Positions 13,109 through 47,640 of a stretch of DNA of 47,640 nt are shown in pieces. The notes beneath the pieces are model-generated. The model ran no database searches, was not told the origin of the DNA, and was given only the letters and a program-made list of their open reading frames with translations. Location: the IMG/VR virus record IMGVR_UViG_3300035670_000351, positions 1-47,640 of that record; one strand, written 5' to 3'. The stretch comes from a virus. Each line of letters opens with the position of its first letter. The stretch's first letter is position 1. The position numbers and the translations under genes are program-made.

Positions 13109-13514
13109 GTTTCTTTCTCCAGTTCCAATATAAAACAAGCGCTCCATCGTTAGGTGGTTGATCGCCTAATTTATTTTTAAAAAATATTTCCCAAGACCTA
13201 GAAGCATAATCTCCGATCCCTGGTAATTCTACAACGTGTGACCAATCACCTTTAACGTAAGCTGACGTCATTCGAAAAAGTCTTTCAGTCCTTCTGTTTT
13301 GAAATCCTAAAGGTTTTATTAATTCTGAAACCTCTTCCTTGATCGCGCTAAGAAATTGATCGGCAGACTGCCATCTATTAAAAAATTCCGGTAAAACTTT
13401 TTCTATTTGTTTGCGCGTCGTACAATTCAACATCATACATGCTACTAAACATTTCCATTCATCCGGCCAAAGGTCTTCTTGAATCAATCCATATGGCGAT
13501 CGATAAGGGATCAT
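13101..13514 (-). CDS. HhH-GPD DNA glycosylase, MBD4-like
   Basis: 137 aa. The fold order matches the catalytic domain of MBD4 (mismatch thymine/uracil glycosylase). WKCLVACMMLNCT corresponds to WKLLIATIFLN, SELIKPLGF to SELLKPLG, and LPGIGDYASRSWEIFF (97-112) to the helix-hairpin-helix LHGIGKYGNDSYRIF. PPNDGAL keeps the catalytic Asp123. It lacks an Fe-S cluster and any methyl-CpG-binding domain. It would excise a damaged or mismatched base such as T, U or 5-hydroxymethyl-U. Overlaps the pyrophosphorylase gene by 4 bases. Confidence 0.75.
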   Translation of the reverse strand: MIPYRSPYGLIQEDLWPDEWKCLVACMMLNCTTRKQIEKVLPEFFNRWQSADQFLSAIKEEVSELIKPLGFQNRRTERLFRMTSAYVKGDWSHVVELPGIGDYASRSWEIFFKNKLGDQPPNDGALVLYWNWRKKHG

Positions 13515-31532: not shown

Positions 31533-32468
31533 TCAGAATCCTCTTTCCTTTAGTTTTTTGCTTAAATAAACTCGGAAAGTTTCTAAGTCTTCTATCATCT
31601 CTGGGTGTTGGCGCATTAACTCGGCATCTTGTGGCGTAATAACAGGCTTTGTAGTCACACCACGATGCTTATAAGGAGATGCTAATTCGTCAATATATTC
31701 TTTCATGATTTCGAGAGTCGCCACTTGAACATCATCGAAGTTTTCATAACGAGTCTTGAATTTATCAAGAACTCGATTCATAAACTGCAATGAGCCATTT
31801 GGATTTTTAAATCCAAGTTCTACTGCCATTTTTTTCAATTTTACTTCGCCCTTTTGGTTACGACGCGTACGACCCGCTTGAGGATCAGATGAGTCAACCG
31901 CCTCTAGATCTTCATCTTTCATTTTTGTTAAAGTCTTTTTAAGACCCTTAACTTCAGGCGTTTTTGGACCAACTGCGATACCACGAGCTTCAGGATCAAG
32001 CTTTTTTACGGCAGCACCGGTAGCTAACTTAGGAGCAGGACCAGATCCCTTCCAAACCATTTCACCAGTTGCTGGGTCTTTTTGAAAGTATTCTTTTAGG
32101 GAACGCTTTGGCAATTCGATATTATTCAAGATGTTTCTAATCGCTAAACGAATCGTTTCCTCTATTTTTGCATTACTTTTATCCATCTGATCTTTTCCTT
32201 TGTCTTCTTCTTGCGATTGCATGGCATGCTTTAATGAGTCATAAACGTCTGGTACCTTATCGTCGGATAAATCATCAATCATCGCCATTAAAGTAACTTG
32301 TAATTCTTGTTTGTTGTTGGGCTTATAATCCGAATTGCTCGGATCTGTCAATGAGGCAGATGGATCTACGACTGGATTAATCTTAACCATATCTGGTCCT
32401 AACGCCTTGTTTTCTAGCAATGTTTTTACCATTGCTCGAAGTTGTGATTCTTTTAAGCGATTATTCAT
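31533..32468 (-). CDS. Tagged structural-type protein with two tag copies
   Basis: 311 aa. Residues 8-21 (SQLRAMVKTLLENK) and about 106-120 (ETIRLAIRNILNNIE) are both tag-like helices. The middle is Lys/Asp/Pro-rich. The C-terminal third (KLKKMAVELGFKNPNGSLQFM and MKEYIDELASPYKHRG) is a compact helical domain. No enzyme motif. It precedes the nitrilase gene by one base, so the two are coupled. Likely virion or assembly protein, by inference. Confidence 0.6.
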   Translation of the reverse strand: MNNRLKESQLRAMVKTLLENKALGPDMVKINPVVDPSASLTDPSNSDYKPNNKQELQVTLMAMIDDLSDDKVPDVYDSLKHAMQSQEEDKGKDQMDKSNAKIEETIRLAIRNILNNIELPKRSLKEYFQKDPATGEMVWKGSGPAPKLATGAAVKKLDPEARGIAVGPKTPEVKGLKKTLTKMKDEDLEAVDSSDPQAGRTRRNQKGEVKLKKMAVELGFKNPNGSLQFMNRVLDKFKTRYENFDDVQVATLEIMKEYIDELASPYKHRGVTTKPVITPQDAELMRQHPEMIEDLETFRVYLSKKLKERGF

Positions 32469-32734
32469 TTTTCACCTGAAAATTTTGCATCCGTCCAACG
32501 ACGACCAAAGTATAGAGTAAGTAGAGGAATAAAATAAGTAGAAGTCGCACCGACATCAAACGGCCTTAACTTAAGGGGGCCCACTTCTTCAAACATTGAA
32601 ACGACATACGCAGCCGTAGTAACTAAAAAAGAAACTGTTAAAAAAGTAACTGATAAAGAAGCTTGACCTTTACTGTTTTTAATCCAAAACCACGATGGTT
32701 TCGGTCTCTCGACGTTACTGTTTTCTTCAGCCAT
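32465..32734 (-). CDS. Two-span membrane protein (holin-like size)
   Basis: 89 aa. Two hydrophobic helices (LSVTFLTVSFLVTTAAYVV and TYFIPLLTLYFGRRW) separated by a short loop, with charged ends. The size fits small phage holin-like proteins. Its neighbours 32771-33705 look like lysis or envelope proteins. Overlaps the next gene by 4 bases. Function not proven. Confidence 0.6.
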   Translation of the reverse strand: MAEENSNVERPKPSWFWIKNSKGQASLSVTFLTVSFLVTTAAYVVSMFEEVGPLKLRPFDVGATSTYFIPLLTLYFGRRWTDAKFSGEK

Positions 32735-32770
32735 AATATCCTCGCATTCCTAAATATTAAAGATCTAGAA

Positions 32771-33313
32771 TTATTGCGAAGCTTTTGAAATTGCAAAAGC
32801 AGTTAATATCGTTAGCGCGATGCCACTCGCGGCACCAAGACCTACCCATGCGCCAGGATGCCATCTCGAATTTTTTTCGTCGTTAAGTCTTTTTACTTCA
32901 ATATCAAAACTTTTAATCATCGCATCTTTGCTTTTGATATTTGCTTCCATGATTTTTTTATCAGCGGTATATTCTGTAGCTTTATCGCTTAGTTGTTTAT
33001 CGCAATCTGCTTTCGATTGCGCAATAGCATTCATAACTTCGATATGAATTCTTTCTTCAAACATTTCGTACTCAACAATAATATTCGCGACGGCGGAAGG
33101 TGACAATAGTACACCTGTAAATGGAGCGCGTTGTCTTTTCTTCATCGGAGACAACGCCAATCCTGGATCTTTTTCACCAGGAATCAATGCTGGTGGAGGG
33201 ATATTAATAGCTTTTGGATCTGGGTCTGGTGACGGCACGCTTTGTGCCAAAACAACTTGTGGCGCTAAAAAAGACAAAAGAACGATTGAAGAAATTAATT
33301 TATTAATTTTCAT
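32771..33313 (-). CDS. Exported protein with C-terminal membrane anchor
   Basis: 180 aa from ATG 33313, chosen because GAGGA lies 6 bases ahead. The signal peptide is about residues 1-24 (ISSIVLLSFLAPQVVLA). A Pro-rich linker, the segment RAPFTGVLLSPSAVANI, a coiled coil (about 90-145) and a final hydrophobic helix follow. It may span the periplasm and return to the membrane. It is coupled to the TM-coiled-coil gene upstream. A spanin-like or tail-fibre-independent lysis role is possible. Confidence 0.55.
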   Translation of the reverse strand: MKINKLISSIVLLSFLAPQVVLAQSVPSPDPDPKAINIPPPALIPGEKDPGLALSPMKKRQRAPFTGVLLSPSAVANIIVEYEMFEERIHIEVMNAIAQSKADCDKQLSDKATEYTADKKIMEANIKSKDAMIKSFDIEVKRLNDEKNSRWHPGAWVGLGAASGIALTILTAFAISKASQ

Positions 33314-33315
33314 GT

Positions 33316-33705
33316 TCATTCCTCAGGCATGACTATTTTGAAACCGGTAACCTCAGCAAGTTTTTCAGCCAACTTATCAGGCTTACCACCAGTCGTTGAG
33401 ATGACCTGTTTGACTGCGGATTGCTTTTTTTCTTCAAAAGCGATCTTTGCCGTCTCGTATTCCTTCTCGATAGCCGCCATTCTTTCTTTATATTTTCTCT
33501 CATTCGCTTCATAACCTTTTCGCTCCTCTTCTCTAACTTTTTTAATTTCATCGAGTTCTTTTTGGTGAGATTCTTGCAGCGAGCGCACGATGTTTTCATA
33601 AGCGTCGACCTTCTTTCTATATGACGCGAAACCAAGAACGACGAACAAACCGATAGCTAGATAAGCCCAGTTGTTCTTTAAAAAATCTTTAAATTTGTCT
33701 ATCAT
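33316..33705 (-). CDS. i-spanin-like TM + coiled-coil protein
   Basis: 129 aa. A short N-terminus, one transmembrane helix (WAYLAIGLFVVLGFASY), then a long coiled coil (about residues 35-100) and a small C-terminal part. This N-in, coiled-coil-out layout is that of Rz-type inner-membrane spanins. The overlapping exported gene downstream is a candidate partner, although it is not a typical short o-spanin. Confidence 0.5.
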   Translation of the reverse strand: MIDKFKDFLKNNWAYLAIGLFVVLGFASYRKKVDAYENIVRSLQESHQKELDEIKKVREEERKGYEANERKYKERMAAIEKEYETAKIAFEEKKQSAVKQVISTTGGKPDKLAEKLAEVTGFKIVMPEE

Positions 33706-33711
33706 AAAACC

Positions 33712-33990
33712 TCAATTTGATTTTGGTGGATTTTGTTTAGACTTTGCATTGATACCCACTGAATCTAACGGGTCTTTAGCAGCATTGCGATTAGCTTGTG
33801 CTAATTTTAAAATTAATTCTTCGTGAGTGTTAAGCCTGTCGTTAAGCACCAATATCAATTCGGTAATTCTTTTTGATTCTTGCGCTATTAGAGTAACGCT
33901 CGAAATTAATTTATGAATATGCGAAGAAGAAACTATCGCATCTTCAATAAAATTTTCGATCATCGTTTTAAAAGAATTCTTTTGACTCAT
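33712..33990 (-). CDS. Small helical protein
   Basis: 92 aa. Three or more helices (MIENFIEDAIVSSSHIHKLI; ITELILVLNDRLNTHEELIL) and a Pro/Lys-rich disordered tail. Overlaps the RHH-like gene by 4 bases. No family recognised. Confidence 0.55.
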   Translation of the reverse strand: MSQKNSFKTMIENFIEDAIVSSSHIHKLISSVTLIAQESKRITELILVLNDRLNTHEELILKLAQANRNAAKDPLDSVGINAKSKQNPPKSN

Positions 33991-34289
33991 TGATCATTAG
34001 TCCCATTTATCATATTATACAATACGTCGGCTTCAAAATCGCTGACAGATTCTTTCTTTTTTCTGCGACGGGGACCTTCCGACAAAGTCGATCTTAGCTT
34101 TTTATCAATGATTGACTCAAAAATGGAGTGCGCCTTCGGCATTTCCGACACAACCATTTTTGCAAATTCATCAAACAACTCTTGCATCGACATGTTGTAT
34201 TTAAACAATTTCGATCTCAGAGCTATATGAGTATCTTTATCTAATTTAATGTGTACGCTTTTTTTATCGATGAATATATCTGATCTCAT
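33987..34289 (-). CDS. Ribbon-helix-helix-like protein
   Basis: 100 aa. SVHIKLDKDTHIALRSKLF then NMSMQELFDEFAKMVV gives a strand and two helices with the spacing of RHH/MetJ-Arc DNA-binding proteins. A Lys/Arg cluster (GPRRRKKKE) near the C-terminus adds positive charge. It could repress transcription or bind packaged DNA. One-base overlap with the next gene. Confidence 0.6.
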   Translation of the reverse strand: MRSDIFIDKKSVHIKLDKDTHIALRSKLFKYNMSMQELFDEFAKMVVSEMPKAHSIFESIIDKKLRSTLSEGPRRRKKKESVSDFEADVLYNMINGTNDQ

Positions 34290-34813
34290 TATGCACCTGG
34301 CGACATGCCGGCGCGATCTGCATCAGGAGATGGAAATTCCTCGTCTTCTACTTCTGACTTAGACTTTCCTATTTCAACACCGTAAATATCCATCAAATTT
34401 TCCTTGAATGCATCGACGACAGCAGGTTCATATCCCTTCACAAGGAAATTAATCGCTCGACGCAAAATTGTATTACGAACTTCTAACAATGCATCGTAAT
34501 TGTCGACCAAGCGCATTACGCTATCTAAAAAGTTTTCTACATCGATGTCTTCGCCAGTTAATTTCTTTGGTTCTTCTTTTTTCTCATCTTCTTCTGCTTC
34601 TAAAAGAAAACGACGAGTCATCATGCGAAAATCTTTTCCTTCCAATTTCGCATCTTTTGATTCGCTTTCATAATCGGCAAAATATCTATCGATTTGAGCA
34701 TCGAGAGAATCTTCCCCTTCTTCCTTCTTATCTTTCTCGCCAACCTCGAGAAGATTCTTTTGAATCTCCTCTACGATGAGACGACGAAGCTGGTCGACGG
34801 TTAAGCGAGACAT
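34289..34813 (-). CDS. Tagged acidic protein, 174 aa
   Basis: Start at ATG 34813, which overlaps the SOD-like stop as TGATG. Residues about 5-20 (VDQLRRLIVEEIQKNLLE) are a strong tag copy. The rest is acidic and helical, with a conserved-looking middle (ENFLDSVMRLVDNYDALLE). Translational coupling to the SOD-like gene suggests joint production. Scaffold or virion role inferred. Confidence 0.6.
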   Translation of the reverse strand: MSRLTVDQLRRLIVEEIQKNLLEVGEKDKKEEGEDSLDAQIDRYFADYESESKDAKLEGKDFRMMTRRFLLEAEEDEKKEEPKKLTGEDIDVENFLDSVMRLVDNYDALLEVRNTILRRAINFLVKGYEPAVVDAFKENLMDIYGVEIGKSKSEVEDEEFPSPDADRAGMSPGA

Positions 34814-35523
34814 CACTTCACCACCTGAGCGATGCCTTCGGCTTTTTTAACTCTTTCTTCAATAACGTTCCAGTTAAACTCTCTCATTTGGGCGATAAGG
34901 TATGACTTCTTATCAGCGAGATAATCGCGGTAATATGCATGCTCCCACATATCGACTACAATCACTGGATAGATTCCTACTGGCACGTGTCCGCTGTGCT
35001 CGTCGATCATGACGTTAACATACTTACGAAGAAACATATGATAACCTGTTACAGCCCAACCCGTCTTCGAAGCAAGTGCGCAAGCCATAAAATCTCTTTG
35101 CCAATCTTCAAAAGTACCGAAGTCTCTTTCGAGTCTCATGTACGCCATCGAGTCCATCACGATTTCTGAATGCGGATCAAAACAATTGGCGAAATATAAT
35201 TCGTGCAACCAAAGGGCGTTTAGATTAAACGTCTCATCAATTTTTAAAGATCTATATTGGGAATGTCGAGAATTTACGTCTGTTCTCTCTGCAGTATCTA
35301 GTTCAGCTGACACCTTATTGAACGACTCTACATATCCCTTATAGAGTTCTTCATGCGCAGTTTTGGTTTTTTGAGAAACGAGTTCTGAAACCTGCTTAAA
35401 CGGTTTTGGTTCATGAACGAATGCTTCGTCAAGCTTAGGAAGCGAAACAACAGTATCGCCAACGGCTTGCTTAACAAAGCCCTTTAACATTTCATCTAGT
35501 TGGTCTTTATCAATCAAGCTCAT
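34813..35523 (-). CDS. Fe/Mn superoxide dismutase-like protein
   Basis: 236 aa. His57 (KTAHEELYKGYV), His107 (LWLHELYF), Asp191 and His195 (DMWEHAYYRDY) reproduce the four metal ligands of Fe/Mn-SOD. The N-terminal 40 residues are extra and include DEMLKGFVKQAVG, a weak tag-like helix. SOD-like proteins are known in T4-like marine phages. It may protect against superoxide or be a structural adaptation. Overlaps neighbours on both sides. Confidence 0.8.
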   Translation of the reverse strand: MSLIDKDQLDEMLKGFVKQAVGDTVVSLPKLDEAFVHEPKPFKQVSELVSQKTKTAHEELYKGYVESFNKVSAELDTAERTDVNSRHSQYRSLKIDETFNLNALWLHELYFANCFDPHSEIVMDSMAYMRLERDFGTFEDWQRDFMACALASKTGWAVTGYHMFLRKYVNVMIDEHSGHVPVGIYPVIVVDMWEHAYYRDYLADKKSYLIAQMREFNWNVIEERVKKAEGIAQVVK

Positions 35524-35791
35524 ATTCGTCCTCCAAAGTTTCCTTGTCTAGTAAAAAATCTTCACCCTCAGGTGTCTTAAGTATAATGTCGCGGGGGCCA
35601 ACTGAAACGACGGTGTATAGAATCTGACTCTTCTTGTGTCTTATTTTTAGATCTTTAGAAATAACTTCTTTGTTTTCTCCATCGACCTTTGACTTAAAAG
35701 TTAAATCAACATCTTCAGAAAGTTTGGCAACTTTTGCTTGCCACTCCTCCCTCATGATTCTAATAATGTCTTCTTCTTGTAAATTCTTCAT
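35510..35791 (-). CDS. Tagged small beta-barrel-like protein
   Basis: 93 aa. Residues 5-18 (QEEDIIRIMREEWQ) are a tag-like helix. The rest is beta-rich (ILYTVVSVGPRDIILKTPEG) and ends in acidic residues, like an SH3-type small barrel. It combines the two recurring themes of this window. Overlaps the dCMP deaminase gene by 4 bases and the SOD-like gene by 14. Confidence 0.6.
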   Translation of the reverse strand: MKNLQEEDIIRIMREEWQAKVAKLSEDVDLTFKSKVDGENKEVISKDLKIRHKKSQILYTVVSVGPRDIILKTPEGEDFLLDKETLEDEYELD

Positions 35792-36228
35792 GGGATCTTG
35801 TTCTTAATTATAACATCACGCAGATTAAAAACCTTAATTCCAGCCGAAGTCAAAATTTCCAATCCTGAAGTATCTCTATACTGAATATCGTAAAACACCT
35901 TATCAATTTCTGCATTTACAATTAATTTTGCACAATTTCTGCACGGAGAATGCGTCAAATACATATGTTTCTTTTTGTGAAAATTAAAATCACATTTTAC
36001 TAGCGCGTTAACTTCTGCATGAATAAATCCGCTAAATCCAGGTTGTTCCGATTCCCTTTCATGCGGACCACCCTTATAGTTTCCGTTATAGCCCATAGAC
36101 AACATTTGTGAATTATCTTCTGACACTACAACGGCACCGACTTTAAGCGTTTCATCATATGAACGTTGCGCAACAAGTTTTGCAATGCCAATCCAGATTT
36201 CTGGCCAGGTTGGTCTTGACAGTTCCAT
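35788..36228 (-). CDS. dcd: dCMP deaminase
   Basis: 146 aa from ATG 36228, with AGAGGAAT upstream and one base after the TK stop. FIHAEVNAL (His70, Glu72) and SPCRNCAKLI (Cys96, Cys99) are the zinc site and catalytic Glu of cytidine/dCMP deaminases. KVGAVVVSEDN and MGYNGNYKG match phage-type dCMP deaminases. It makes dUMP, feeding TMP synthesis. If the TS-family enzyme uses dCMP, the two compete for the same pool. The symbol follows phage usage; it is not the bacterial dCTP deaminase. Confidence 0.88.
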   Translation of the reverse strand: MELSRPTWPEIWIGIAKLVAQRSYDETLKVGAVVVSEDNSQMLSMGYNGNYKGGPHERESEQPGFSGFIHAEVNALVKCDFNFHKKKHMYLTHSPCRNCAKLIVNAEIDKVFYDIQYRDTSGLEILTSAGIKVFNLRDVIIKNKIP

Positions 36229-36229
36229 A

Positions 36230-36790
36230 CTATTCCTCTGGGTTTGCGATGGATGGATGACATTTGGAACAACGCGGCTCGTAAAGCTCGCCACCGCCTA
36301 TTTCAATTTCATCACCACCAGTTTGTTTCTTGTACGTATAAAAGGCGTCTTTGTTACAAACGACACAAACTGCGCTTAACTTTTCTATCTTCGTCGCCCA
36401 AGGTAGCATCTTTTCTACTTCGTCGAATGGTTTACCTGTAGCAGATAAGTCGAGACTAGATACAACAACAGTATATCCACTTCTATACAGCCAGATTAGT
36501 ACCTCGGCGACTCCGGGAATCATAAACGCTTCATCAACTGCGATAACTTGAGGATTCTCTTCGAGCGAAGTTAGGTATTCAAGAATATCGCTTCCATATT
36601 CAACACAAACTGCTGGAATCTTCCAACCACCGTGTGTCGAAATGTTATCGACGCTATAGCGTGCGTCTAACATCGGTTTAAATGTAGCGATACGCTTACC
36701 TTGATATTTGTAACGATCGAGTGTTGACAATAGAGATGTCGTCTTTGCAGAAAACATCGGACCAGTATAAACAACAAAAGATGGATTCAT
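36230..36790 (-). CDS. tdk: Thymidine kinase (TK1 type)
   Basis: 186 aa. P-loop GPMFSAKTT (10-18; the usual Gly before Lys is Ala), VDEAFMIPG (Walker B/lid) and the zinc ribbon CVVCNKDA...CSKCH identify the TK1 family. It phosphorylates thymidine or deoxyuridine. Overlaps the TS-family gene by 4 bases (ATGA). Confidence 0.9.
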   Translation of the reverse strand: MNPSFVVYTGPMFSAKTTSLLSTLDRYKYQGKRIATFKPMLDARYSVDNISTHGGWKIPAVCVEYGSDILEYLTSLEENPQVIAVDEAFMIPGVAEVLIWLYRSGYTVVVSSLDLSATGKPFDEVEKMLPWATKIEKLSAVCVVCNKDAFYTYKKQTGGDEIEIGGGELYEPRCSKCHPSIANPEE

Positions 36791-37797
36791 GTCGTTCGCT
36801 CTTTTACAAAATATTCGTAACCTTTAAACATTGTTGATTGAAGCAATCGATTAGATTCATCTAAGCTATCTAACTTTAACAATCGGTGTGATACTAAAAT
36901 TTTACACCAATCAACCCAATATGAATCGCTCAAAGTAATTCGATCAAGACACCTTAGAACCGCAGTAGGAGTCATGCATTTACGTACTTCTAATTCCAAC
37001 TCGCACAGCGCCTCTAGTGGAGGCATGGTCGGCATCTGCGGCATCTCAACAACGTCTTGATAATCCCTACGCGTATCTTCATCAAGTATTTTTTCGACCA
37101 TTTTAAAGTGTCTCTCATAAACATGAAGAGAAGCGCTAAGGTGTGTATAAGACCCTAACCCAATTGGTCGACCAAGCTCTTGCGTTAATTGTAGGGCAAG
37201 TAATTCTTGAAAAATTGTGAAAGCGGGAACATCATAGGTTAAACCAAGAATAACGTCCGAAGATCGCATGGACGCGACCATGTGTACTTTATCATTACGC
37301 AAGAAAAATTGCAATGATAACGTGCAAGGTACATCTAGACTGGCCAATATCGAATCTTGTGGGGAACGAATATGAATAACAGCTCGACGCGAATCAGGAT
37401 CAGACTTTAATTCATTAACGATATATTCCCACTGCGTCCATGCTGCGTCGATACTAGACGCTATTCTTGCATGAGGTTTAAAAATTCTAGCGCCATAGGC
37501 ACTATTAGCTGTTTTACCATCGTCAGAAATTTTAGACCAAAACGCAGAGTAGTTTGAAATCCAGCTGGTAGAATCGTTACCACTAAGATACCAAAGTAAT
37601 TCTGCAACAAGATAGTGAATTGATAATTCTCTACCTTTGATGTATGGAATTCTATTTCGCGGATTTAGAATTTTAAATTGATATCCAAGAATTTCCTTGA
37701 CTTTCATCCCACGAGGGGAAGATACGAATTCAGGATCCGAATATACGTCGCGAAGAATGTCAACATAGGCTTCGGTAAAATTTTGATATACTTTCAT
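36787..37797 (-). CDS. Thymidylate-synthase family; dCMP hydroxymethylase-like
   Basis: 336 aa. DSRRAVIHI (136-), LDVPCTLSLQFF with catalytic Cys158, RSSDV (178-) and SASLHVYERHF define the TS fold. In RSSDVILGLTYDV, Asp189 stands where ThyA has the Asn (GLPFN) that reads dUMP. T4 dCMP hydroxymethylase has Asp at the equivalent place, and SLHVY-x-RHF also resembles it. I therefore favour a dCMP-directed enzyme, making hydroxymethyl- or methyl-dCMP with methylenetetrahydrofolate, over a plain TS. It lies in the operon with carbamoyltransferase and kinase genes. Confidence 0.75.
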   Translation of the reverse strand: MKVYQNFTEAYVDILRDVYSDPEFVSSPRGMKVKEILGYQFKILNPRNRIPYIKGRELSIHYLVAELLWYLSGNDSTSWISNYSAFWSKISDDGKTANSAYGARIFKPHARIASSIDAAWTQWEYIVNELKSDPDSRRAVIHIRSPQDSILASLDVPCTLSLQFFLRNDKVHMVASMRSSDVILGLTYDVPAFTIFQELLALQLTQELGRPIGLGSYTHLSASLHVYERHFKMVEKILDEDTRRDYQDVVEMPQMPTMPPLEALCELELEVRKCMTPTAVLRCLDRITLSDSYWVDWCKILVSHRLLKLDSLDESNRLLQSTMFKGYEYFVKERTT

Positions 37798-38756
37798 TTT
37801 GACAATCTCAATGAATTAATCAACTGCCAGTTTTCATCATACCACTTCATGGTTCTCTCGAGACCTTCCCAAAAACGAACTAAAGGCACATAACCCAATA
37901 ATTCATTCGTTCTGGAAACATCTGCCTGAGTGTGCATAACGTCGCCGGGCCGCCATGGTGCATCATGGTATTTCGCTTCTGGATATTTGGATAACAAGAA
38001 CTCAAGAATAGCTTTGTTCGTCGTTCTGTCTCCACAAGCTACGTTAAGTGGTTCGCCCTTTAACAAACCATCAGCTTCACCGCTTCTAATGCAGGCATCG
38101 ACTATGTTATCAACATAACACATGTCGCGCGATTGCGAACCATCACCATCAGACCTCATCGATCTATTCGCATGAATAGCTGTTAACCACGCTGACACAG
38201 CTGTCGCATAAGGAGAATCGCCTAATTGATTTGGGCCAAACACATTAAAGAAACGTAAGCAAACCGAATCCAATCCGTATAATTGATAATAGAGCTTTAA
38301 ATAATCCTCTATTATGGATTTCTGTAAAGCATATGGTGACTTTGGATTTTTCGGCGTTGAGGTAGGCGTTGGTAACTCGTCAGCGCCACCATAAACAGAC
38401 GAAGAAGATGCAAAAACGAACCTCTTTACATTGTCACGGCATGCATCCATTAATTTTAAAGTCGCGTTAACGTTTGTTTCGTGAGTCTCTAAGGGATACT
38501 CGACCGAATAACTTACGCGAGGAATAGCCGCGAGATGAATTACAACATCATAAGTTTTTGAACGAATTTTATTCAAGATTTTATCAGAGGCAAAATCATC
38601 TACATGTAAAGTACAGCCTTTAGGTACAAACTCCATGTGACCATTAGACATGTTGTCTACAATGTCAACCTTCACGCCGCGCGAAACTAATTCTTTCGTA
38701 AGGTTACTGCCAATAAATCCAGCACCACCAGTTACTAATGCATGTTCTATCTTCAT
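37794..38756 (-). CDS. Extended-SDR NAD-dependent sugar epimerase/dehydratase
   Basis: 320 aa. TGGAGFIGS (NAD loop), HLAAIPRV, SSSSVYGG, YALQK (Tyr-x-x-x-Lys) and RFFNVFGPNQ are classic extended-SDR signatures, closest to UDP-glucose/GlcNAc 4-epimerases (GalE/WbpP). It would epimerise a UDP-sugar. Overlap of 4 bases with the TS-family gene ties it to the modification operon. It may provide a sugar for DNA or surface decoration. Confidence 0.85.
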   Translation of the reverse strand: MKIEHALVTGGAGFIGSNLTKELVSRGVKVDIVDNMSNGHMEFVPKGCTLHVDDFASDKILNKIRSKTYDVVIHLAAIPRVSYSVEYPLETHETNVNATLKLMDACRDNVKRFVFASSSSVYGGADELPTPTSTPKNPKSPYALQKSIIEDYLKLYYQLYGLDSVCLRFFNVFGPNQLGDSPYATAVSAWLTAIHANRSMRSDGDGSQSRDMCYVDNIVDACIRSGEADGLLKGEPLNVACGDRTTNKAILEFLLSKYPEAKYHDAPWRPGDVMHTQADVSRTNELLGYVPLVRFWEGLERTMKWYDENWQLINSLRLSK

Positions 38757-38781
38757 ATTGTTTGCCTTTCGTAATCATATC

Positions 38782-39771
38782 TTACTTTTTCCAAAAAGAG
38801 TATATGTTTTTTTCGATTTCGTAAGTCATATTCTTAGATTGTTTTTTGGGTTGTTGCATCGCCCAAACGAACATATCTTTTATAGTTTCTCGCAGATCTG
38901 TTTCGTCTTTAAAGTCTAATAATTTATTAGCTTTTGAGTGATCGCAATATGCTGCATGCACTTCGTTACGCTTTTCCAAGTATATTTTTTTCGCGCTAAT
39001 TCCGAATTCTTTCGCAACATCGATGACAAGATCAGCTGCTTCGTTAATTGTATAATACTTGTCAGCGCCTATATTAAAAATTTCTCCGTTATATTCGGTC
39101 GACAATTTTTCGAATGGTTCCATATAAAACTTGATATCCGAAAAAGCACGAATTTGTGTACCATCGCCATACAAAGTCAAAGGTTCATTCGCCAAAGCTT
39201 GACGAATCCAAATACCAATGACGTTCCTATATCGATCCCAAATATTTTGATAGATGCCGACAACGTTGTGAGGACGAACTATGCTATATTGAAGATCAAA
39301 CATTTCATGCGCAAGTTTTAGATCCATCTCGACTGCATATTTAGCGATTCCATAGGGGTCTTCTGGCGTCGGTAATTGATCTTCTGTGAATGGTGGATTA
39401 CCGACCCCATATACCGCCATTGACGACGTATAAATTATTTTTTTAACGTTGCTATTAATACTAGCGTTAATAACGTTCGCGGAGGCAATTACATTGTTTG
39501 TGTAATTATAATTTCGGACGAATGGGCTTAAACCTTCTGCAGCGTACGCAGCAAAATGATAAACGCAATCTGGTTTTTCATTTCTAAAAATTTTTTCACA
39601 AGCTTCTCTATTAATCAAATCAACTTTATAAAAAACGACTTGACTTGGTACGAATTCTTTGTATCCACCGCTCAAATCATCGATACCAACTACTTTGTGC
39701 CCTTTGCTTAAAAGATGTCTTGCGAAATTTGCTCCCAATAAACCTGCTATTCCTGTAACCAAACATTTCAT
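38782..39771 (-). CDS. Second extended-SDR sugar epimerase/dehydratase
   Basis: 329 aa. TGIAGLLGAN, YHFAAYAAEG, TSSMAVYG, YGIAK (Tyr-x-x-x-Lys) and RPHNVVGIYQN are extended-SDR motifs. It is divergent from 37794-38756, so the two probably have different substrates. GGAGATAA precedes the ATG. Located directly after the TS-like and carbamoyltransferase genes. Confidence 0.85.
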   Translation of the reverse strand: MKCLVTGIAGLLGANFARHLLSKGHKVVGIDDLSGGYKEFVPSQVVFYKVDLINREACEKIFRNEKPDCVYHFAAYAAEGLSPFVRNYNYTNNVIASANVINASINSNVKKIIYTSSMAVYGVGNPPFTEDQLPTPEDPYGIAKYAVEMDLKLAHEMFDLQYSIVRPHNVVGIYQNIWDRYRNVIGIWIRQALANEPLTLYGDGTQIRAFSDIKFYMEPFEKLSTEYNGEIFNIGADKYYTINEAADLVIDVAKEFGISAKKIYLEKRNEVHAAYCDHSKANKLLDFKDETDLRETIKDMFVWAMQQPKKQSKNMTYEIEKNIYSFWKK

Positions 39772-39781
39772 TAGTTATCTC

Positions 39782-40435
39782 CTAGACATTATCTCCACAC
39801 ATAGCGTCGAATAATCCTATGAATTCATTCCAGCTAGAAATACCTTGTGCAGTAGAACAATATACTGACATTTGAAGATTTTTGTAATCAGAATAGACAG
39901 GTTTAATAAAAAATTCAAAAATCGTCAAGATATCAACAAGCAATTCATTTTTTATATCTGACGCCCTAAACACCAACTTAGGACCTGAATTCAAATAGTG
40001 AATAAGGTTTAAACAAGTAACATCTAACGCAGAAGAAGTTTCACTAACAAAATAATCATCAAATCCGTTGACAAATCTTACCATGCAGCGTCTTGTAGTT
40101 GGCTTCGTAGCGAGATGCGTTTTAATATCGCTCAATAACTCAAGATATTTTTTACGATTTTCTCTTTCACACGCGACAGTATAAATCGTTGAATTTAAAG
40201 TTTGCAATTCCAACAAAGAACGCAAACTTGGTCGATCATCAACGAAGCTTAAAAAATTTTGGGGATCAGTATTTTGATTCAAAAAAGCATTACGCTTTAT
40301 TTCGTAATAGTTAGCAAGACCTGTATCAATCTTTCTCAATTCATCGATAGCGCTATCACCGACTGGAATGTTTGCTAGTTCCAACCTAATCAAATAATCG
40401 TCGTTTTCAAATTCGGGATTTTTAATTACACGCAT
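39782..40435 (-). CDS. Divergent thymidylate-synthase-like protein
   Basis: 217 aa. Though unlike ordinary TS overall, it keeps the order of key elements of the 36787 enzyme. These are T-R-R at 114-116 (DSRR), LDVTC with Cys141 (LDVPC, the catalytic Cys), RASD at 157-160 (RSSD), and Asp168 exactly 11 residues after that Arg, as Asp189 is in the other. The N-terminal region is shorter. Three bases separate it from the carbamoyltransferase gene. It may be a specialised base-modifying enzyme or an accessory subunit. This match is my own reading. Confidence 0.55.
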   Translation of the reverse strand: MRVIKNPEFENDDYLIRLELANIPVGDSAIDELRKIDTGLANYYEIKRNAFLNQNTDPQNFLSFVDDRPSLRSLLELQTLNSTIYTVACERENRKKYLELLSDIKTHLATKPTTRRCMVRFVNGFDDYFVSETSSALDVTCLNLIHYLNSGPKLVFRASDIKNELLVDILTIFEFFIKPVYSDYKNLQMSVYCSTAQGISSWNEFIGLFDAMCGDNV

Positions 40436-40438
40436 ATT

Positions 40439-42208
40439 TCAACCATCAAAATCGCAAAGATAAAGAAGCGGAAGCTTATGACCCAATTCTTTCGCCTTAT
40501 CGAATTCAAATTTAAAACTATCCATGACGCTATCTAAAGAATATACGATTGGACGTCCATGCGCATTAAAGCTAGTGTTGATTAAAGCTTTCGATTGTGG
40601 ATAAATGTCAGTTAAAACTGACGTCATAAACGTATCGTTATCGTCGATTAATTGAGGACGTCCTGACCACACATCTACGCCTGGATACTTGTGAGCAACG
40701 CCTCCATAATTTTGTAAATCAGGAGAAGTATAATCGTAAGTAAGAATCATAAATCGATCGGAGCCAATTACTCTATCGCTATTGTTGGTATTAAAAAACA
40801 GATCGACAACAGCGTTGAGCATAACAGGCGCCATTGGCATCACAGTGTCTCTTTCATTGATGTCGTTAATAATTTCGACGTTGGAAGTTGTCGGAATCGC
40901 TAAGGTAGTTGTACTGCACAAAGCTCTGGGACCATACTCCATTCGAGACTTTACAACATTCACTAATTCATTTGACTGTAATGCCTTTACGGTATCAGAG
41001 ACTGCCTCGTTTCTTTGTGTAGAAGAATAATATTTAATATGACTTCCATATGTAGCAAAATCTTCGGCAGAAATTTGGTCACGCCAGTTACTAAACGCAG
41101 GACGAATGCCCCACTTCAAATCGCCCCACTTAAATCCACCGACATGAGCCTCGTACATACCTACGCCACAACCCTGGTCGCCAGCAAGAGGAACGACAGA
41201 AAATAATCCTGGAATTTTATTTAAGGCTCTATTGTTTAACTTAACGTTATAAAAGATACCGCCTGCTAATGCCAGATGTTTCATCGAATGACGTTCAATC
41301 ATCTTTAACACGACGCCTTCGATAAGCTCTTGAATATAATGACCAATGATAATTCTCAAATCTCGGCCCGATGTATTTGGGGCAACAGATTCGATAACGC
41401 TATCGAAATGTTGTTTCCATTGTTTTTTGGTATTTGCTAGCGCGTGGAAATTAACCAAATTAGACTCGTCCTTCCAGTTCATTTCTCTACCATCAGGTGA
41501 CGTCACCATATTATCAAACATAGAGTCTGCTTTAGTTCTAGCTAGCTCTCTTAGAAGTTGTATAGAATCCCAAGACAGAACATTAGTAACGTGGGTTTCA
41601 TATCCCAAGAACTTATATTCATCTTGATTTTCTTTCATACCACAATACGAAGTTGCGTATTGATACATAAGACCTAGCGAATATCCATAACCGTGATATC
41701 TTTCGAGAAGTTTTAACTTCGAAGACTTATTACTAGCATCGAATTCATAAACACTAAAAACTTCTTGGAATGTACCGTAGCCATCTGCCGCGATAACATG
41801 AAATTTATCTTTTGAAGCAACAAATTTGTCAAAAGAATTTGACCATTTATCTCTCAAAAAGGAAACGGCCGACCATGCGTGAGCATCGTGATGAGTAAAA
41901 CCCTCGCTCAAAACGACTTTCTTTAAAGAATATTTTTTGACGAGATTGTCAAAGTGCAGTTTGTCAAAATACTTGTTTGATGAAGAATCAAAATCTAGCT
42001 TGTCAAACCAGTGAGAAACGAAAACAAAACTCCCCTCCGCGATTGTCACATTCTTTTCAATTTCATCAATAGACATCCGAGGATATGCGCTCGACGACTT
42101 GACACGATTAAGTCTCTCTTCTTCGTATCCAGTTGCCTTTTCGCCATCAAAATAGACTGCAGAAGCGTTGTGTCCTAGAGTTAGCATTAGAGCTGTTGTC
42201 GTTTTCAT
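40439..42208 (-). CDS. NodU/TobZ-type carbamoyltransferase
   Basis: 589 aa, full length. GHNASAVYFDG (12 onward), HHDAHAWSA (106 onward, metal-binding in the Kae1-like domain), LALAGGIFYNVKLN (312 onward), MEYGPRAL (423-430) and NTSFNAHGRPI are diagnostic. The N-terminal Kae1-like domain makes carbamoyladenylate from carbamoyl phosphate and ATP; the C-terminal YrdC-like domain moves the carbamoyl to a hydroxyl. A phage member of this family is reported to carbamoylate 5-hydroxymethylcytosine. The adjoining TS-family genes make that the leading hypothesis. Confidence 0.9.
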   Translation of the reverse strand: MKTTTALMLTLGHNASAVYFDGEKATGYEEERLNRVKSSSAYPRMSIDEIEKNVTIAEGSFVFVSHWFDKLDFDSSSNKYFDKLHFDNLVKKYSLKKVVLSEGFTHHDAHAWSAVSFLRDKWSNSFDKFVASKDKFHVIAADGYGTFQEVFSVYEFDASNKSSKLKLLERYHGYGYSLGLMYQYATSYCGMKENQDEYKFLGYETHVTNVLSWDSIQLLRELARTKADSMFDNMVTSPDGREMNWKDESNLVNFHALANTKKQWKQHFDSVIESVAPNTSGRDLRIIIGHYIQELIEGVVLKMIERHSMKHLALAGGIFYNVKLNNRALNKIPGLFSVVPLAGDQGCGVGMYEAHVGGFKWGDLKWGIRPAFSNWRDQISAEDFATYGSHIKYYSSTQRNEAVSDTVKALQSNELVNVVKSRMEYGPRALCSTTTLAIPTTSNVEIINDINERDTVMPMAPVMLNAVVDLFFNTNNSDRVIGSDRFMILTYDYTSPDLQNYGGVAHKYPGVDVWSGRPQLIDDNDTFMTSVLTDIYPQSKALINTSFNAHGRPIVYSLDSVMDSFKFEFDKAKELGHKLPLLYLCDFDG

Positions 42209-43464
42209 GTTGTCTCCTTCAATTGCAAATCAGAAACTTTGATAGCGTCGGCATCGACCAACGTACCATATGGTTTGCCCATAATGAGTTTATCATATCT
42301 TACACCCCACTCGTCTAATTGTTTTTTTGTTAGCTCATAAAGATTTTGATAAACCATCGCCACGTCGTTATTGAAACGTTTCATGCCGCGAGCTGTGTGA
42401 AGTACGATTTCATCACCACGATCATACAACTTATTAAGAGCATCGATGGCTACTGGAAAAGGTTCACACAAGTGATAGTTGCCACCTGTTTCGGTGCAAA
42501 TCGTGCCATCAATATCCCACACCCAAGATTTTTTGCCTGCGGGCAATACATTCATATGACGAGCGATTGAATGCCTTCCACCCGTTGGACCTTTAACGAT
42601 AGCAATTTCGTTAAAATCTTGCATCGCAAGTTTAATATAGTCCTTACGCGAGGACTTCGTAATACAAAAACTACCGCTAATTCGACAGTTGACCTCTAAG
42701 AGTTTTGGATTTCCGCTTGAATCAAACTTAAATTGTGCGAACCAAAAATATGGCAACTTCAACTTCGCAGCGATCGTTTTAATGTGAGTACCAATTAGTT
42801 CCCAATACTCAGGTGCGGAACGCCCATAAGAAGTTATTCCATCTCTAATTCTGGTACGAAGCCTAACATTCCAGTCTACAATCTCACCAGTAGGTGTTGA
42901 TACACAATCAACTGTAAATTCCTCGCCTGGTAAAAATTCGGTCACAACATCCATCGACGTAATTGTTTGCCAATCATCGATCGTGTTTTTTATTCGACGT
43001 GCTCCTTCGGCCGACGAACTATAACAAGGCTTAGCAAAAAGCTCGATATCGGCTGGTGCTTCAAAATGATTCTTTAAAACTTTTGGAGAAATATCCGGTA
43101 ATAGTTCATATAGTTTATTTTTGAATAAACAAGGCGCCAGATTCTCGCGACCAGGTATCATTAACTTATCAATGCACTCCAACGATTCCCAATTATCGTA
43201 TAAAAATTTTAGCATCTTACAATTCGTAACGAATACTTTGTCGATGCCATTATCTTTGATAAAAATCTCCAACCACGACAAAAAGTCAGTAGCAGACTTC
43301 CATGGATTGGGACATTCGAAGATATATTTTTTGTTTAGATAAGCTTGACCAGCATTAATGGTGTCATAATGACAACCATACACTTCATGTGTATTGAGTT
43401 CAGAAATACTACGAACCATCTCGATGGAACTTTCGTTCCCGTAAGTCAACAACAAAATTTTCAT
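42205..43464 (-). CDS. ATP-grasp domain fused to HAD phosphatase
   Basis: 419 aa from ATG 43464 (ATGA with the kinase stop). The N-terminal part has a Rossmann-like start (MKILLLTYGNES), a central ATP-grasp region (FAKPCYSSSAEG; VTEFLPGEEFTVD; KLLEVNCRISGSF). The C-terminal about 110 residues are a HAD domain (WVWDIDGTICTE, with D-x-D-G-T; VLHTARG). ATP-grasp enzymes join acyl phosphates to amines; HAD removes phosphate. In this operon it could add a group to a modified nucleotide and then trim it. It is coupled to both neighbours. Confidence 0.75.
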   Translation of the reverse strand: MKILLLTYGNESSIEMVRSISELNTHEVYGCHYDTINAGQAYLNKKYIFECPNPWKSATDFLSWLEIFIKDNGIDKVFVTNCKMLKFLYDNWESLECIDKLMIPGRENLAPCLFKNKLYELLPDISPKVLKNHFEAPADIELFAKPCYSSSAEGARRIKNTIDDWQTITSMDVVTEFLPGEEFTVDCVSTPTGEIVDWNVRLRTRIRDGITSYGRSAPEYWELIGTHIKTIAAKLKLPYFWFAQFKFDSSGNPKLLEVNCRISGSFCITKSSRKDYIKLAMQDFNEIAIVKGPTGGRHSIARHMNVLPAGKKSWVWDIDGTICTETGGNYHLCEPFPVAIDALNKLYDRGDEIVLHTARGMKRFNNDVAMVYQNLYELTKKQLDEWGVRYDKLIMGKPYGTLVDADAIKVSDLQLKETT

Positions 43465-43955
43465 CGTCGAACCTCGCACTGCTTTGCGATGAATTCTACA
43501 GCTTCATCGGTTGGATTTATCAAAAACTTATCGATCTTCAAAGCTGGAAAAATTTGTCGATAAGCTTCTTTAACTTTCTCGTTCTGTTCTTTCGTGACTG
43601 TCTCTTCTCTTTCGATCCATGGTCGATTGAGCTCCAGCAAAATCAACAAATAATCTAATTCCCTAAATCTATCTTCGATACCTTGCAAAATTTCTGGTGT
43701 GATATTGTTTCGATTAAAAACCTTGCCATACGCCAACTCTGAAACATACGATCGATCGTAGATAAACGGTCCAGGACGTCTATCGATATCATAGAAATAT
43801 CCGGTCAGGTAATCGAACTTGCCCTCGACGAATCCATAGCCTTTATGCATATGAATTACTTCGATACCTAAACGCTTACTCAACTTCTCACAAAAAGTTG
43901 ATTTACCTTGCTGCTCAGCGCCCTCAACGATAATACCACCAGTTTTGATTTTCAT
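43461..43955 (-). CDS. Deoxynucleoside(monophosphate) kinase
   Basis: 164 aa. GAEQQGKST (12-20) is a P-loop; IYDRSYVSELAYG is the DR[SD] substrate-site motif of the dNK/TMPK group. LLILLELNRPWIER is the lid-side region. It phosphorylates a nucleoside or nucleotide, perhaps the product of the TS-family enzymes, as T4 dNMP kinase does for hm-dCMP. Overlaps DnaE by one base. Confidence 0.75.
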   Translation of the reverse strand: MKIKTGGIIVEGAEQQGKSTFCEKLSKRLGIEVIHMHKGYGFVEGKFDYLTGYFYDIDRRPGPFIYDRSYVSELAYGKVFNRNNITPEILQGIEDRFRELDYLLILLELNRPWIEREETVTKEQNEKVKEAYRQIFPALKIDKFLINPTDEAVEFIAKQCEVRR

Positions 43956-46900
43956 TAGCTCTCCAAAATCTTAATCTTACTTACGAAAGTTTTGCATCCG
44001 AAACTATCAACTGTAACTTCAGAAATACAAACCGAATAAACGGGAATTTCTGTCTCGCCGTTCCACCCCCAGCAGAACAAACGTTTAATTTGTCCCGTAG
44101 GTCCCGAAGTTTCCAAGAGAAGATATGGTTTACCATTCTTCGTTTTCTTTTCCTTCACGCCCATCACCACGAACCAGTAGATGTCGCTGGCTTCGAGTTC
44201 GTCGATCGGCTTGATACTCTTCTCTTCAAATTTATTCAACAAATAATCCGGGACGAGTGTCGATGGATTAAAGGAACTAAGATACTTGATGCTATTGTCG
44301 ACAATTTCTCGTCGCGACCAATCATCGATATCTTGCGTTTCAATCAATAGATTGCGGAACGTCTCCATTCCCGCGGTTGGATTCTTCTTTGTCCACTTTT
44401 TGATTTCGTTATTTCGATTAACAAGAATCTCATGCATTTGTTTGTAGTTGTTGAAAGTTTTGTCGGGTCCAACGCAGTCCAAAGAATCAAACGCCTTAAT
44501 CGCAATGAGCGCTTCAAGGGCTCGTTTGTTAAACTTCGAATGTCGCCATTGTCCCGTTGGATACCACAACATTTCTTCGATAGAATTATACGGACGGTTT
44601 TCGATGACTTCTTCGATCGCCGCTGAACCTACGCCCTTACACGAAAGGAAACTAGGCATAAATCGCTTTCCATCAAGAATCGTCCAACTATCTGTTGCAT
44701 AATTAATGTCGATAGGAACGATCTTGTAACCTAGAGCCTTTACCTCGGAGAATGCTTTTGAACGCTTATCATCGCTACCTGACATGGATTCAAGATAAGC
44801 GCAAAGCCATTCTTCCTCGAAGTAAGTAAGAAGCCACGCACAATAGTACGAATCGATAGCATAAGAAACTGCATGAGAGGCGTTAAAACCATAACCAGCG
44901 AAATAAAGGATCTTCTCGAAAAGTTCATCTGCCACCTTCTCGGGAACTCCATTCCTAACAGAACCAGCGACGAACTCGTCCTTTGTTTTCTTCGCTTCGT
45001 CGAAGTTTGCATCTCGCTTCGCGGCTGTTCTCTTCAAAAGATTTCGACGAATCGTATCCGTCTCAGCCTCCGGAAAGCCCGCTACGACTGAGCACAATTT
45101 CATGATTGACTCCTGAAAAACGATACAGCCATAAGTCGGCTCAAGAACCTTTTTAATTAGTGGGTGTTGATAGTCAATCTTTTCAGGATTGTTCTTCGCC
45201 TCGAGGTATAGCTTGTCGACATTCGCCGCAAGAGGCCCAGGACGATAAATCGACGTTAGCGTAGCAATATCGATAATGCTTCTCGGTTTTGCCTTCATGA
45301 AAAGGCGTTGAGCGCCAGCGTTTGCTAACTGAAACACACCGGCGAATCGACCTTCGTGATAAACGTATTCATAAACCTTTTGATCATTAAGGTCAATATT
45401 TTTCGGATCCATGTGCCTATCGAACCACTCTCGAATTTGTGAGAAAGTAGGATTAGCAATTCCTTCACGACGTTGGAGGATTAGATGAATCGTGCGCTCG
45501 ATAATACGCAAAGTTTCAAGACCGAGTAGGTCGAACTTAATCCATCCTAGTTCTTCCAGATGTTTGTAGGTCATACCTTCGACCCAGGGAGTTTGTGGTT
45601 CGCCGCGCGCAAGAATCAGAGGCATTCTTTCCGCGATATTCTCGGAGATGATTACACCTCCCGCGTGGCGACCCAACGAACGATTCTGTTTAAAGAGAAT
45701 TTTAATCGGTCCGGCGACTTCGGGATGAGCCGCGATAAAATCCTGTAGAGACTTTGAGTACTTAATCGCATCCTCATAAGTCAAAACGAAAAGATTTTTA
45801 TCCGTTCCAGGTTTGAACAATTCTCGCTTGACGTCGTCTTCAATCGGCGCCATCGCGGCGTTAACCTCTTCGAAGGGAATACCGTAAAAGCGAGAAATAT
45901 CCTTGATCAAGCTCTTTAGTTTGAAAGTGTTATAGTTCGAAATCGGAATAACATTTTGACCGCCGAACTTTTCGCGGAGAAGCTCGAGAAGCTTATCTCG
46001 ATCCGAAATATCTGAATCGATATCAGGATAACCTTGACGAGCTGGATTCATGAATCGTTCGAACGGTAGATCGTACTCAATAGGATCGAGATTCGTAATT
46101 CCAAGAACGTACGCAACGAGGGCACCGGCGGCAGATCCGCGACCTGGGCCGAGAAGCATATTTTCTCTTGCAATATCAAGGATCGCCTTCATGGTAAGGA
46201 AGTAGTTCGAAAACTTCTTGTCACGAATGATTTTTAGTTCATATTTGAGTCTTTCGATGTATTCAGGCTTACCATCGAGGCCTCGCCAAACCAAACCTTG
46301 TTTACACGCTTCGACCAACGCCTTGTCTTCGGTTAATCCCTCTGGAATAACATAAGAAGGTAGTTTCATCGATCGATCGGGTTGGATATCTCCAATCTCG
46401 TTGTGCACGATATCATGTGTGCGTTCGATCGCATCACAAACGATCGTATCGTCGTAAAAAGACATGCCGGACGTCGTCTTACGGTACGTGTCCCAAATTT
46501 GATCAGCGTTCTTAGGATATAGCTCGCACTTCAATTCTTCAGGGGATTTAGGAAGAGAATTTGGATCAAAGCTTTGGTAATTCAACCAACCCAACTTCTT
46601 ATAGATTTCTCGCTCTTTCCAGTGCTCTGGTCTTGAATAGTGAGAATCGCAAGTAACTACGAGTTTATCGGTCAACGAATTACGCTTAGCAAATTCGATA
46701 ATGGCGCGATTCGCCAGATGCTGCGCTTCGAGTTTGTTAAACTGAATCTCGAGACAAACGTTTTCTTTACCGACAGCGTTCGTTAGTTTGTCGTAAGTAT
46801 TCCCCATAGAATTGAGGATCTTTTCGAAGAGGACAGCGTCGTCTAGCAAGTTGTATTTGAGATCGTCAAAAGAAACTTTTTGTAACTGTTCAAAAATATC

Positions 46901-47553
46901 ATAACACAACGGACCGCCAAGACACGCAGTGCTGACCATGAGATGTCCGCCACTCGCTGCCTCTTTTAGCATCGAATAATCGATTCGAGGAAACCTATAG
47001 AAGCCCTCCAGATAGCCTTTAGAAACTAAGTGAAATAACCTTTGTAGACCAATGGACGTTTTTGGAAGCACAACCAAGTGGTGTCTGCGCTTCACTGGAT
47101 CGTTGTATTTGCCCGACTTCGTCTCCTCCTCGTTTTCGATGGTCAAAGTAGACTCTTCGGTAGTTACATCGATAGTCTCGTCGTTGCTATCTACTACTGC
47201 CGTAATTGGTGTTATGATAGATTCGTCTTTTGCAGGTTTCTCTTTCGATTTTTCAAGATCCTTCTTCCATTGCTGTAAATCAGGATGCACGTACATTTCG
47301 CAACCAGGCACGAACTTAAACTTCTTACCTGATTTACGCAATTTTTCAGCATGAAGATATGCGTGACCAAATCCATTCATGTGGCCATGGTCGGTTAGTG
47401 ACCATGCGTCCATTCCATTTTCGATGACGTAGTTTATATGTTCTTGTGGCAAATCCATTCCATCAAAGGTCGTTACGAGAATCCGCTGTGCGAGTGCAGA
47501 CCGATAAACCGGTGGGGCACGCGCACGGGATTCTTTTTTTCTCCTGTGTTCAT
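43955..47553 (-). CDS. dnaE: DNA polymerase III alpha subunit (DnaE), frame-broken near the 5' end
   Basis: Start ATG 47553, preceded by AAGGA, encodes MNTGEKKNPVRV then RFIGLHSHSGFS, the first PHP motif. It meets TAA at 47473-47475. The main frame (47458-43955, 1167 codons) resumes with TTFDGMDLP and carries SLTDHGHMNG (PHP), LGPGRGSAAGA, PDIDSD (catalytic Asp, about residue 475), GRHAGGVII and a C-terminal OB fold. A -1 shift or a 5-nt skip at TCGTAACG restores one protein. Without it the PHP metal site loses its first histidines. Phage-encoded DnaE replaces PolB or PolA as replicase. Confidence 0.9.
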
Positions 47554-47564
47554 GATTGATTCCT

Positions 47565-47640
47565 TCATTTGCCTTCCCAATTTGGGATTAGATGTTTATA
47601 TCTTACTGCCAGATCTCTATACTTTGCACCATCAATTAAT
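47565..47640 (-). CDS. C-terminus of an unknown gene, cut by window edge
   Basis: Open frame to TGA 47565 with at least 24 residues, ending YKHLIPNWEGK. It lies 11 bases upstream of the dnaE start, so it is probably in the same operon. Too short to identify. Confidence 0.5.
   Translation of the reverse strand, partial: LIDGAKYRDLAVRYKHLIPNWEGK

Follow-up and report, generated by a model that had tools for sequence, protein, structure and literature searches.

The window, that is, the whole stretch of DNA analysed here, comprises 47,640 bases of viral origin (IMG/VR record IMGVR_UViG_3300035670_000351), whose genes include a head protease, an endolysin, a 5'-3' exonuclease and a DnaE-type DNA polymerase. 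The present analysis concerns nine minus-strand genes at 35788-43955, among them a carbamoyltransferase, a thymidylate synthase (TS)-family enzyme and a small TS-like protein, here called miniTS. The polymerase gene (1167 residues, 43955-47458, minus strand; PF07733, E 3e-57) heads the run and occupies the equivalent place in the related loci L001-L007. From this gene down to about position 32771, minus-strand genes follow one another with overlaps or few-base gaps throughout, and the nine genes after the polymerase form a single unbroken run, the spacing between the open reading frames ranging from −65 to +25 bases. The co-directional nine-gene arrangement described in the initial annotation was recovered in full by open reading frame and family searches.

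Searches of Pfam, PHROG, NCBIfam and the PDB identified a thymidine kinase (186 residues, 36230-36790; PF00265, E 5.7e-39), a deoxycytidine monophosphate (dCMP) deaminase (168 residues, 35788-36294; PHROG 174, E 1.4e-42), the TS-family enzyme, two epimerases, the N- and C-terminal domains of the carbamoyltransferase, and an ATP-grasp protein with an EcbF-like HAD part. The call of a P-loop deoxynucleoside monophosphate (dNMP) kinase (164 residues, 43461-43955) is weaker, with a match to the thymidylate kinase family PHROG 761 at E 2.3e-10 and to Pfam AAA_28 below the cut-off. A homologue of this kinase lies near the carbamoyltransferase in L001-L007, L011 and L025. Since kinase, carbamoyltransferase, TS-like protein and TS recur jointly in divergent phages, the grouping of these genes is not due to chance.

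The carbamoyltransferase (589 residues, 40439-42208; PF16861 and PF02543) shows the motifs THHDAH, DG(Y/F)G, GPRAL and NTSFN in the alignment. One phage carbamoyltransferase has been assayed in vitro; it carbamoylates 5-hydroxymethylcytosine (5hmC) in DNA and hydroxymethyl-deoxycytidine triphosphate (hydroxymethyl-dCTP), but not 5-methyl-dCTP or hydroxymethyl-deoxyuridine triphosphate (PMC8670742). It is the sole enzyme with in vitro evidence for making 5-carbamoyloxymethylcytosine, a product that the initial annotation also mentioned for a phage carbamoyltransferase from metagenomes. The window protein aligns with its sequence, as printed in that study, at 33% identity over 584 columns, i.e., at full length (E 2e-81). 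The positions that most distinguish the enzymes from modified DNA are W408, G421 and R423 of TobZ (PMC8670742). At their equivalents, canonical enzymes have W, G and R (GPRALGNRS), the assayed enzyme I, C and T (GPRALCNTT), and the window protein V, C and T (GPRALCSTT), the TobZ numbers being assigned through the TobZ GPRALG motif in an alignment without the TobZ sequence itself. In a tree, the window protein, the assayed enzyme and the TS-linked relatives constitute one clade of 16 rows (100/100), from which four other phage carbamoyltransferases (two from cyanophages, and those of XacN1 and C48C1) are set apart; because some outgroup branches are long, the signature was given as much weight as the tree. 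By clade and signature, the window carbamoyltransferase is assigned to the 5hmC type, unlike the other phage carbamoyltransferases. In L025 (715-2394), the carbamoyltransferase is spread over two open reading frames separated by a gap at 1446-1558, which may reflect a frameshift, an insertion or an assembly error.

The second enzyme of the putative core is the cytosine-type TS-family protein of 336 residues (36787-37797). Its residue 189 is an Asp that aligns with position 177 of E. coli TS, in agreement with the earlier assignment of an Asp to the position selecting between deoxyuridine monophosphate (dUMP) and dCMP, and position 147 is a Thr, in place of the Asn177 and His147 of dUMP-type enzymes. 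The numbering is that of E. coli ThyA, and the landmark residues fall at the expected places. Positions 177 and 147 are the top two TS positions linked to cytosine modification (PMC8670742). Cys146, Glu58, Tyr94, Arg166, Asp169, Gly173, His207 and Tyr209 are all retained. The nearest solved relative in the PDB search is MilA, a cytidine monophosphate (CMP) 5-hydroxymethylase (PDB 5jnh, E 1.5e-45). In the TS-family tree, whose deep branches are poorly resolved, the window enzyme lies nearer MilA, and the TS partner at the locus L027 groups with T4 gp42 (100/99).

These residues bear directly on a reading of the run as ordinary nucleotide metabolism, supplying deoxythymidine monophosphate (dTMP), beside genes for the cell envelope or lipopolysaccharide that have no connection with it. 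DTMP supply is indeed served by thymidine kinase and dCMP deaminase, and sugars are the usual substrates of epimerases and of carbamoyltransferases of the NodU type. Nevertheless, Asp177 and Thr147 argue against the use of dUMP, the signature and clade of the carbamoyltransferase point away from such a role, and this carbamoyltransferase is repeatedly linked to a cytosine-type TS across many unrelated phages; the ordinary-metabolism explanation is thus regarded as very improbable.

A different chemistry on dCMP is represented by RB69 and its relatives, in which a TS-fold enzyme makes 5-hydroxy-dCMP (PMC13390438). This protein, RB69 ORF048 (AfhB), near-identical to PDB 9iqc and 9iqu, has Asn169, Val173 and Phe209, whereas the 336-residue enzyme has Asp, Gly and Tyr at these positions, as does T4 gp42. 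Since the window enzyme lacks the changes of ORF048 and resembles T4 gp42 in its residues, hydroxymethylation is the better reading, and the protein is probably a dCMP 5-hydroxymethylase, as judged from residues and family.

Three further genes of the run are considered accessory. The protein combining an ATP-grasp ligase with an EcbF-type HAD phosphatase (424 residues, 42205-43479; PF15632, E 3.6e-14; HAD part to 1xpj, E 6.2e-8) was found at five loci, in every case directly upstream of a 5hmC-type carbamoyltransferase; it is present in four of the six close lineages and missing beside the carbamoyltransferase in L002 and L003. Its model, with a predicted local distance difference test (pLDDT) score of only 63, is nearest to L-amino-acid ligases (E 1.3e-13; 2pn1, Z 20.1), D-Ala-D-Ala ligases being similar as well. 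The HAD part is homologous to RB69 ORF051 (PDB 9iqw), a gene of the arabinosyl-5-hydroxycytosine cluster (E 2e-8). Both epimerases are of the SDR sugar-nucleotide type: epimerase 1 (320 residues, 37794-38756; PF01370, E 4.6e-52) has a homologue in the clusters of every close relative, L001-L007, and epimerase 2 (329 residues, 38782-39771; PF01370, E 9.2e-47), with YxxxK and TGxxGxxG motifs in its sequence, occurs in two lineages only, those of the window and L001. Elsewhere on the minus strand, the window encodes a UTP-glucose-1-phosphate uridylyltransferase (13511-14584) and a mannose-6-phosphate isomerase-like cupin (7619-7966), and the phage's own sugar-nucleotide genes may feed the epimerases.

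In a rival route, the TS-family enzyme would make 5-hydroxy-dCMP as in RB69-type phages, the base would be glycosylated with an epimerase-derived sugar, and this sugar would then be carbamoylated, in the manner of NodU-type enzymes. The pair of epimerases, the uridylyltransferase in the window and the kinship of the HAD part with the RB69 arabinosylation cluster all fit such a route, as does a cyanophage carbamoyltransferase that adjoins sugar kinase and nucleotidyltransferase genes. However, the 5-hydroxy-dCMP synthase residues are absent from the 336-residue enzyme, and the carbamoyltransferase carries the 5hmC signature and clade rather than those of the other phage enzymes. In addition, no glycosyltransferase was seen in the run, and PF00534, the one glycosyltransferase family searched, is absent from the window and from a sister contig (it occurs in G002 and G003, far from the cluster). 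The glycosylation route is consequently judged unlikely. Sugar or amino-acid addition as such is possible in view of the likeness of the ATP-grasp part to amino-acid ligases, the HAD kinship, the epimerases and the uridylyltransferase, no transferase for it having been found.

The sister contig is 99.993% identical over 15,199 bases (window 32442-47640) and extends past the window. It encodes an all-alpha pyrophosphatase (PF08761) as well as a distinct dUTPase of the trimeric type; given the latter enzyme, the PF08761 protein may serve as a dCTPase, the activity exerted in T4 by gp56. The pathway proposed for the run would begin with the conversion of dCTP to dCMP, probably by this all-alpha nucleoside triphosphate pyrophosphatase, encoded beyond the window on the sister contig of the same phage. 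The 336-residue enzyme would then place a hydroxymethyl group from methylene-tetrahydrofolate onto dCMP, and the dNMP kinase together with host enzymes would give hydroxymethyl-dCTP for incorporation by the DnaE-type polymerase. The 589-residue enzyme would transfer a carbamoyl group from carbamoyl phosphate to the hydroxymethyl oxygen, yielding 5-carbamoyloxymethylcytosine; the acceptor may be the nucleotide or single-stranded DNA, the reaction having been shown for the homologue and being predicted here. The 217-residue TS-fold protein would work with the carbamoyltransferase or its product, and the ATP-grasp-HAD protein and the epimerases, to which the initial annotation assigned the possible addition of further groups, could conceivably furnish an activated precursor or decorate the base further in an optional step. 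Phage DNA carrying the product would be protected from restriction enzymes. The window shows no avoidance of palindromes (observed/expected 1.01-1.02), which would fit DNA unreadable by restriction enzymes; the figure is weak and only suggestive, given the short control stretches.

Several observations weigh against this pathway. An identity of 33% to the assayed carbamoyltransferase leaves room for another acceptor, e.g., a 5-hydroxyl or a sugar hydroxyl. The TS-family tree is weakly resolved outside a few clades, and MilA is named as a CMP enzyme. No MazG-type dCTPase was found in the 11 records scanned, and the dCTPase role of the PF08761 pyrophosphatase is putative. Moreover, the final base may be larger, because the epimerases and the ATP-grasp-HAD protein are unneeded for simple carbamoylation. 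On balance, the run is considered to represent, with good probability, a cytosine-replacement pathway yielding carbamoylated hydroxymethylcytosine. The sequence of hydroxymethyl-dCMP formation followed by carbamoylation, as first suggested for this phage, thereby gains computational support from the clade and signature of the carbamoyltransferase, from Asp177 and Thr147, and from the hydroxymethylase residue set.

Among the genes of the run, miniTS (217 residues, 39782-40435) is the most unusual and the most strictly tied to the carbamoyltransferase, although the initial annotation assigned it no role. No matching family was found in Pfam, PHROG or NCBIfam. The AlphaFold2 model, built with 11 homologues, is confident (pLDDT 90.2, predicted template modelling score 0.89), and in a Foldseek search it retrieves thymidylate synthases at the top (E 2.7e-6). 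On re-alignment, the RB69-type dCMP hydroxylase (Z 11.9), MilA (11.7) and T4 dCMP hydroxymethylase (11.4) are tied, and ordinary thymidylate synthases score Z 10.6 and lower; over all TS-fold entries, Z is 9.8-11.9 for 170-192 residues at 3.7-4.4 Å. At the sequence level, miniTS shows a weak but genuine relationship to the TS enzyme of the operon, with E 2.5e-5 in profile comparison and 4.3e-5 and 5.8e-5 in reciprocal genome scans. A PDB sequence search with the miniTS profile gave no TS match, and the kinship therefore rests on the fold and on profile comparison with phage TS enzymes. The label of a divergent TS-like protein is borne out by the profile comparison, the reciprocal scans and the confident model, and miniTS is predicted to have a TS fold with the catalytic Cys.

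Cys141, Tyr85, Arg157, Asp160 and Asp168 of miniTS, equivalent to Cys146, Tyr94, Arg166, Asp169 and the cytosine-selecting Asp177, are invariant. Glu58 and Gly173, both typical of the folate-dependent thymidylate synthases and hydroxymethylases, are replaced throughout by invariant Lys47 and Glu164, the equivalence of Lys47 and Glu58 being based on helix position and motif spacing.

When miniTS by itself served as the query against 2.9 million viral contigs and against genome contigs, it was found on 14 contigs representing 12 independent lineages, the window and its sister contig being counted once and near-identical contigs merged. In all 12 lineages, a cytosine-type TS and a 5hmC-type carbamoyltransferase lie only a few genes away. 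The converse linkage fails: the carbamoyltransferase is present in Xp15, in Effie and in the L008-L014 group, and miniTS was not found in them. A tblastn search with miniTS in 50,697 phage records gave no relative. In L009 (7210-7998) and its kin (L008, L010, L013), a TS-family gene overlaps the carbamoyltransferase gene; that of L009 is cytosine-type with altered catalytic residues (Gln58, Glu169, Lys209), and the record has no miniTS. A carbamoyltransferase-miniTS-TS set is also present in L077 (JAIPJN010000016.1), labelled as a Patescibacteria metagenome-assembled genome; this contig is probably of phage origin and was binned together with the bacterial sequences.

The distribution of miniTS suggests that it acts with the carbamoyltransferase or its product, and not with one particular hydroxymethylase. 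Most likely, it binds hydroxymethyl-dCMP or its carbamoyl derivative, either guiding it or reacting through the conserved Cys. A catalytic role has somewhat less than an even chance, and a role as partner or regulatory subunit is slightly less probable. An exclusively non-catalytic subunit pairing with the hydroxymethylase, which would be compatible with the core pathway, is conceivable though less likely than not: TS-fold enzymes are dimers whose active site borrows Arg residues from the other subunit, both subunit-exchange Arg residues are retained in miniTS (Arg115 and Arg116, with one exception each), the miniTS gene adjoins the TS gene on several contigs, and Bacteroides phage BF503P1 has two cytosine-type TS genes, one without Glu58. 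Yet the type of TS partner varies (window type, T4 type as in L027, BF503_45 type) while miniTS stays with the same carbamoyltransferase family. Furthermore, miniTS pairwise distances follow those of the carbamoyltransferase better than those of TS (Spearman 0.70 vs 0.54, significance not assessed), and the active-site Cys, Tyr and Asp never vary, a constraint not expected of a mere scaffold. A more speculative and rather unlikely proposal treats carbamoylation as an activation step, in which the miniTS Cys would attack C6, either of 5-carbamoyloxymethyl-dCMP or of the modified base within DNA, the carbamate would be expelled, and a new nucleophile would enter at the 5-methylene; this might be an amino acid supplied through the ATP-grasp protein. 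Such a mechanism would resemble thymidine hypermodification, in which activation is by pyrophosphate.

Other genes of the window lie outside the proposed pathway. An Fe/Mn superoxide dismutase-like gene (34813-35523, minus strand) belongs to the same run, directly after the dCMP deaminase and a 93-residue gene, and is conserved in L001-L006; a nitrilase/carbon-nitrogen hydrolase family protein is encoded at 30773-31531 (minus strand; PF00795, E 6.6e-26). A 2-aminoadenine (Z) genome was considered on account of an adenylosuccinate synthetase of the short archaeal type (8020-9012, minus strand), which matches the PurZ PHROG. Phage PurZ and PurZ0 have Ser where PurA has Asp (PMC12884076); the window protein keeps the PurA Asp (GDCGKGK) and scores 118.9 against a cut-off of 300 in the NCBIfam PurZ model, and this candidate was rejected.

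The core enzyme activity is already published, and the three-part set with miniTS is undescribed in the literature searched, which excluded most subscription journals. In the literature searched, neither the natural phage of 5-carbamoyloxymethylcytosine nor its full gene set was found, the base being known from one in vitro study. Through the locus and its relatives, isolates become available for a direct search for the base, among them the cultured phages Xp15, Effie and BF503P1. The locus and its relatives also point to miniTS, an unstudied TS-fold protein, as a third component of the core in one large branch; if it is catalytic, an enzyme fold that is among the best studied would have acquired a new use, and if the activation proposal were true, cytosine hypermodification would gain a new class, served by a TS-fold enzyme independent of folate.

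With respect to known systems, the window shares with the MetaGPA pathway (Yang et al. 2021, PMC8670742) a cytosine-type TS, a carbamoyltransferase of the same signature and a dCMP deaminase. In contrast to the window, a phosphoribosyl-ATP pyrophosphohydrolase domain is a frequent neighbour there, and ATP-grasp and epimerase genes are unmentioned; having no Pfam family, miniTS could not have been seen in that study. The activity of the MetaGPA enzyme was shown in vitro, and that study did not establish which base the native phage carries (PMC8670742).

T4 gp42 has all the mapped catalytic and selectivity residues of the 336-residue enzyme, but the two are only 28% identical and gp42 is shorter (246 residues), the window C-terminus being longer. 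MilA, which acts on CMP in the synthesis of the antibiotic mildiomycin, differs from the 336-residue enzyme by Lys for Arg126, Ile for Trp80 and Ala for Ser167. The RB69-type 5-hydroxy-dCMP synthase shares the TS fold with miniTS, of which it is the top structural match in a tie with MilA and the T4 enzyme; it keeps Glu58 and has Asn169 and Val173, where miniTS has Lys47, Asp160 and Glu164. The RB69 cluster has the HAD family in common with the window and, unlike the pathway proposed here, makes arabinosyl-5-hydroxycytosine (PMC13390438).

The combination of carbamoyltransferase, dNMP kinase and cytosine-type TS recurs in Xanthomonas phage Xp15, Acinetobacter phage Effie and BF503P1, accompanied in the first two by a dCMP deaminase. 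Genome scans of Xp15 and Effie gave no miniTS; candidates for a hidden second TS beside their carbamoyltransferases (gp40 and gene 400) are not TS-like, and the second TS encoded elsewhere in Effie is of the ordinary dUMP type. In BF503P1 (L018), gene 40 (9456-10262) encodes a second cytosine-type TS of 268 residues, located after the kinase in the position of miniTS and having lost Glu58 and Gly173. Its annotation as a dCMP hydroxymethyltransferase is probably a misnomer, and the protein is perhaps a counterpart or an older form of miniTS.

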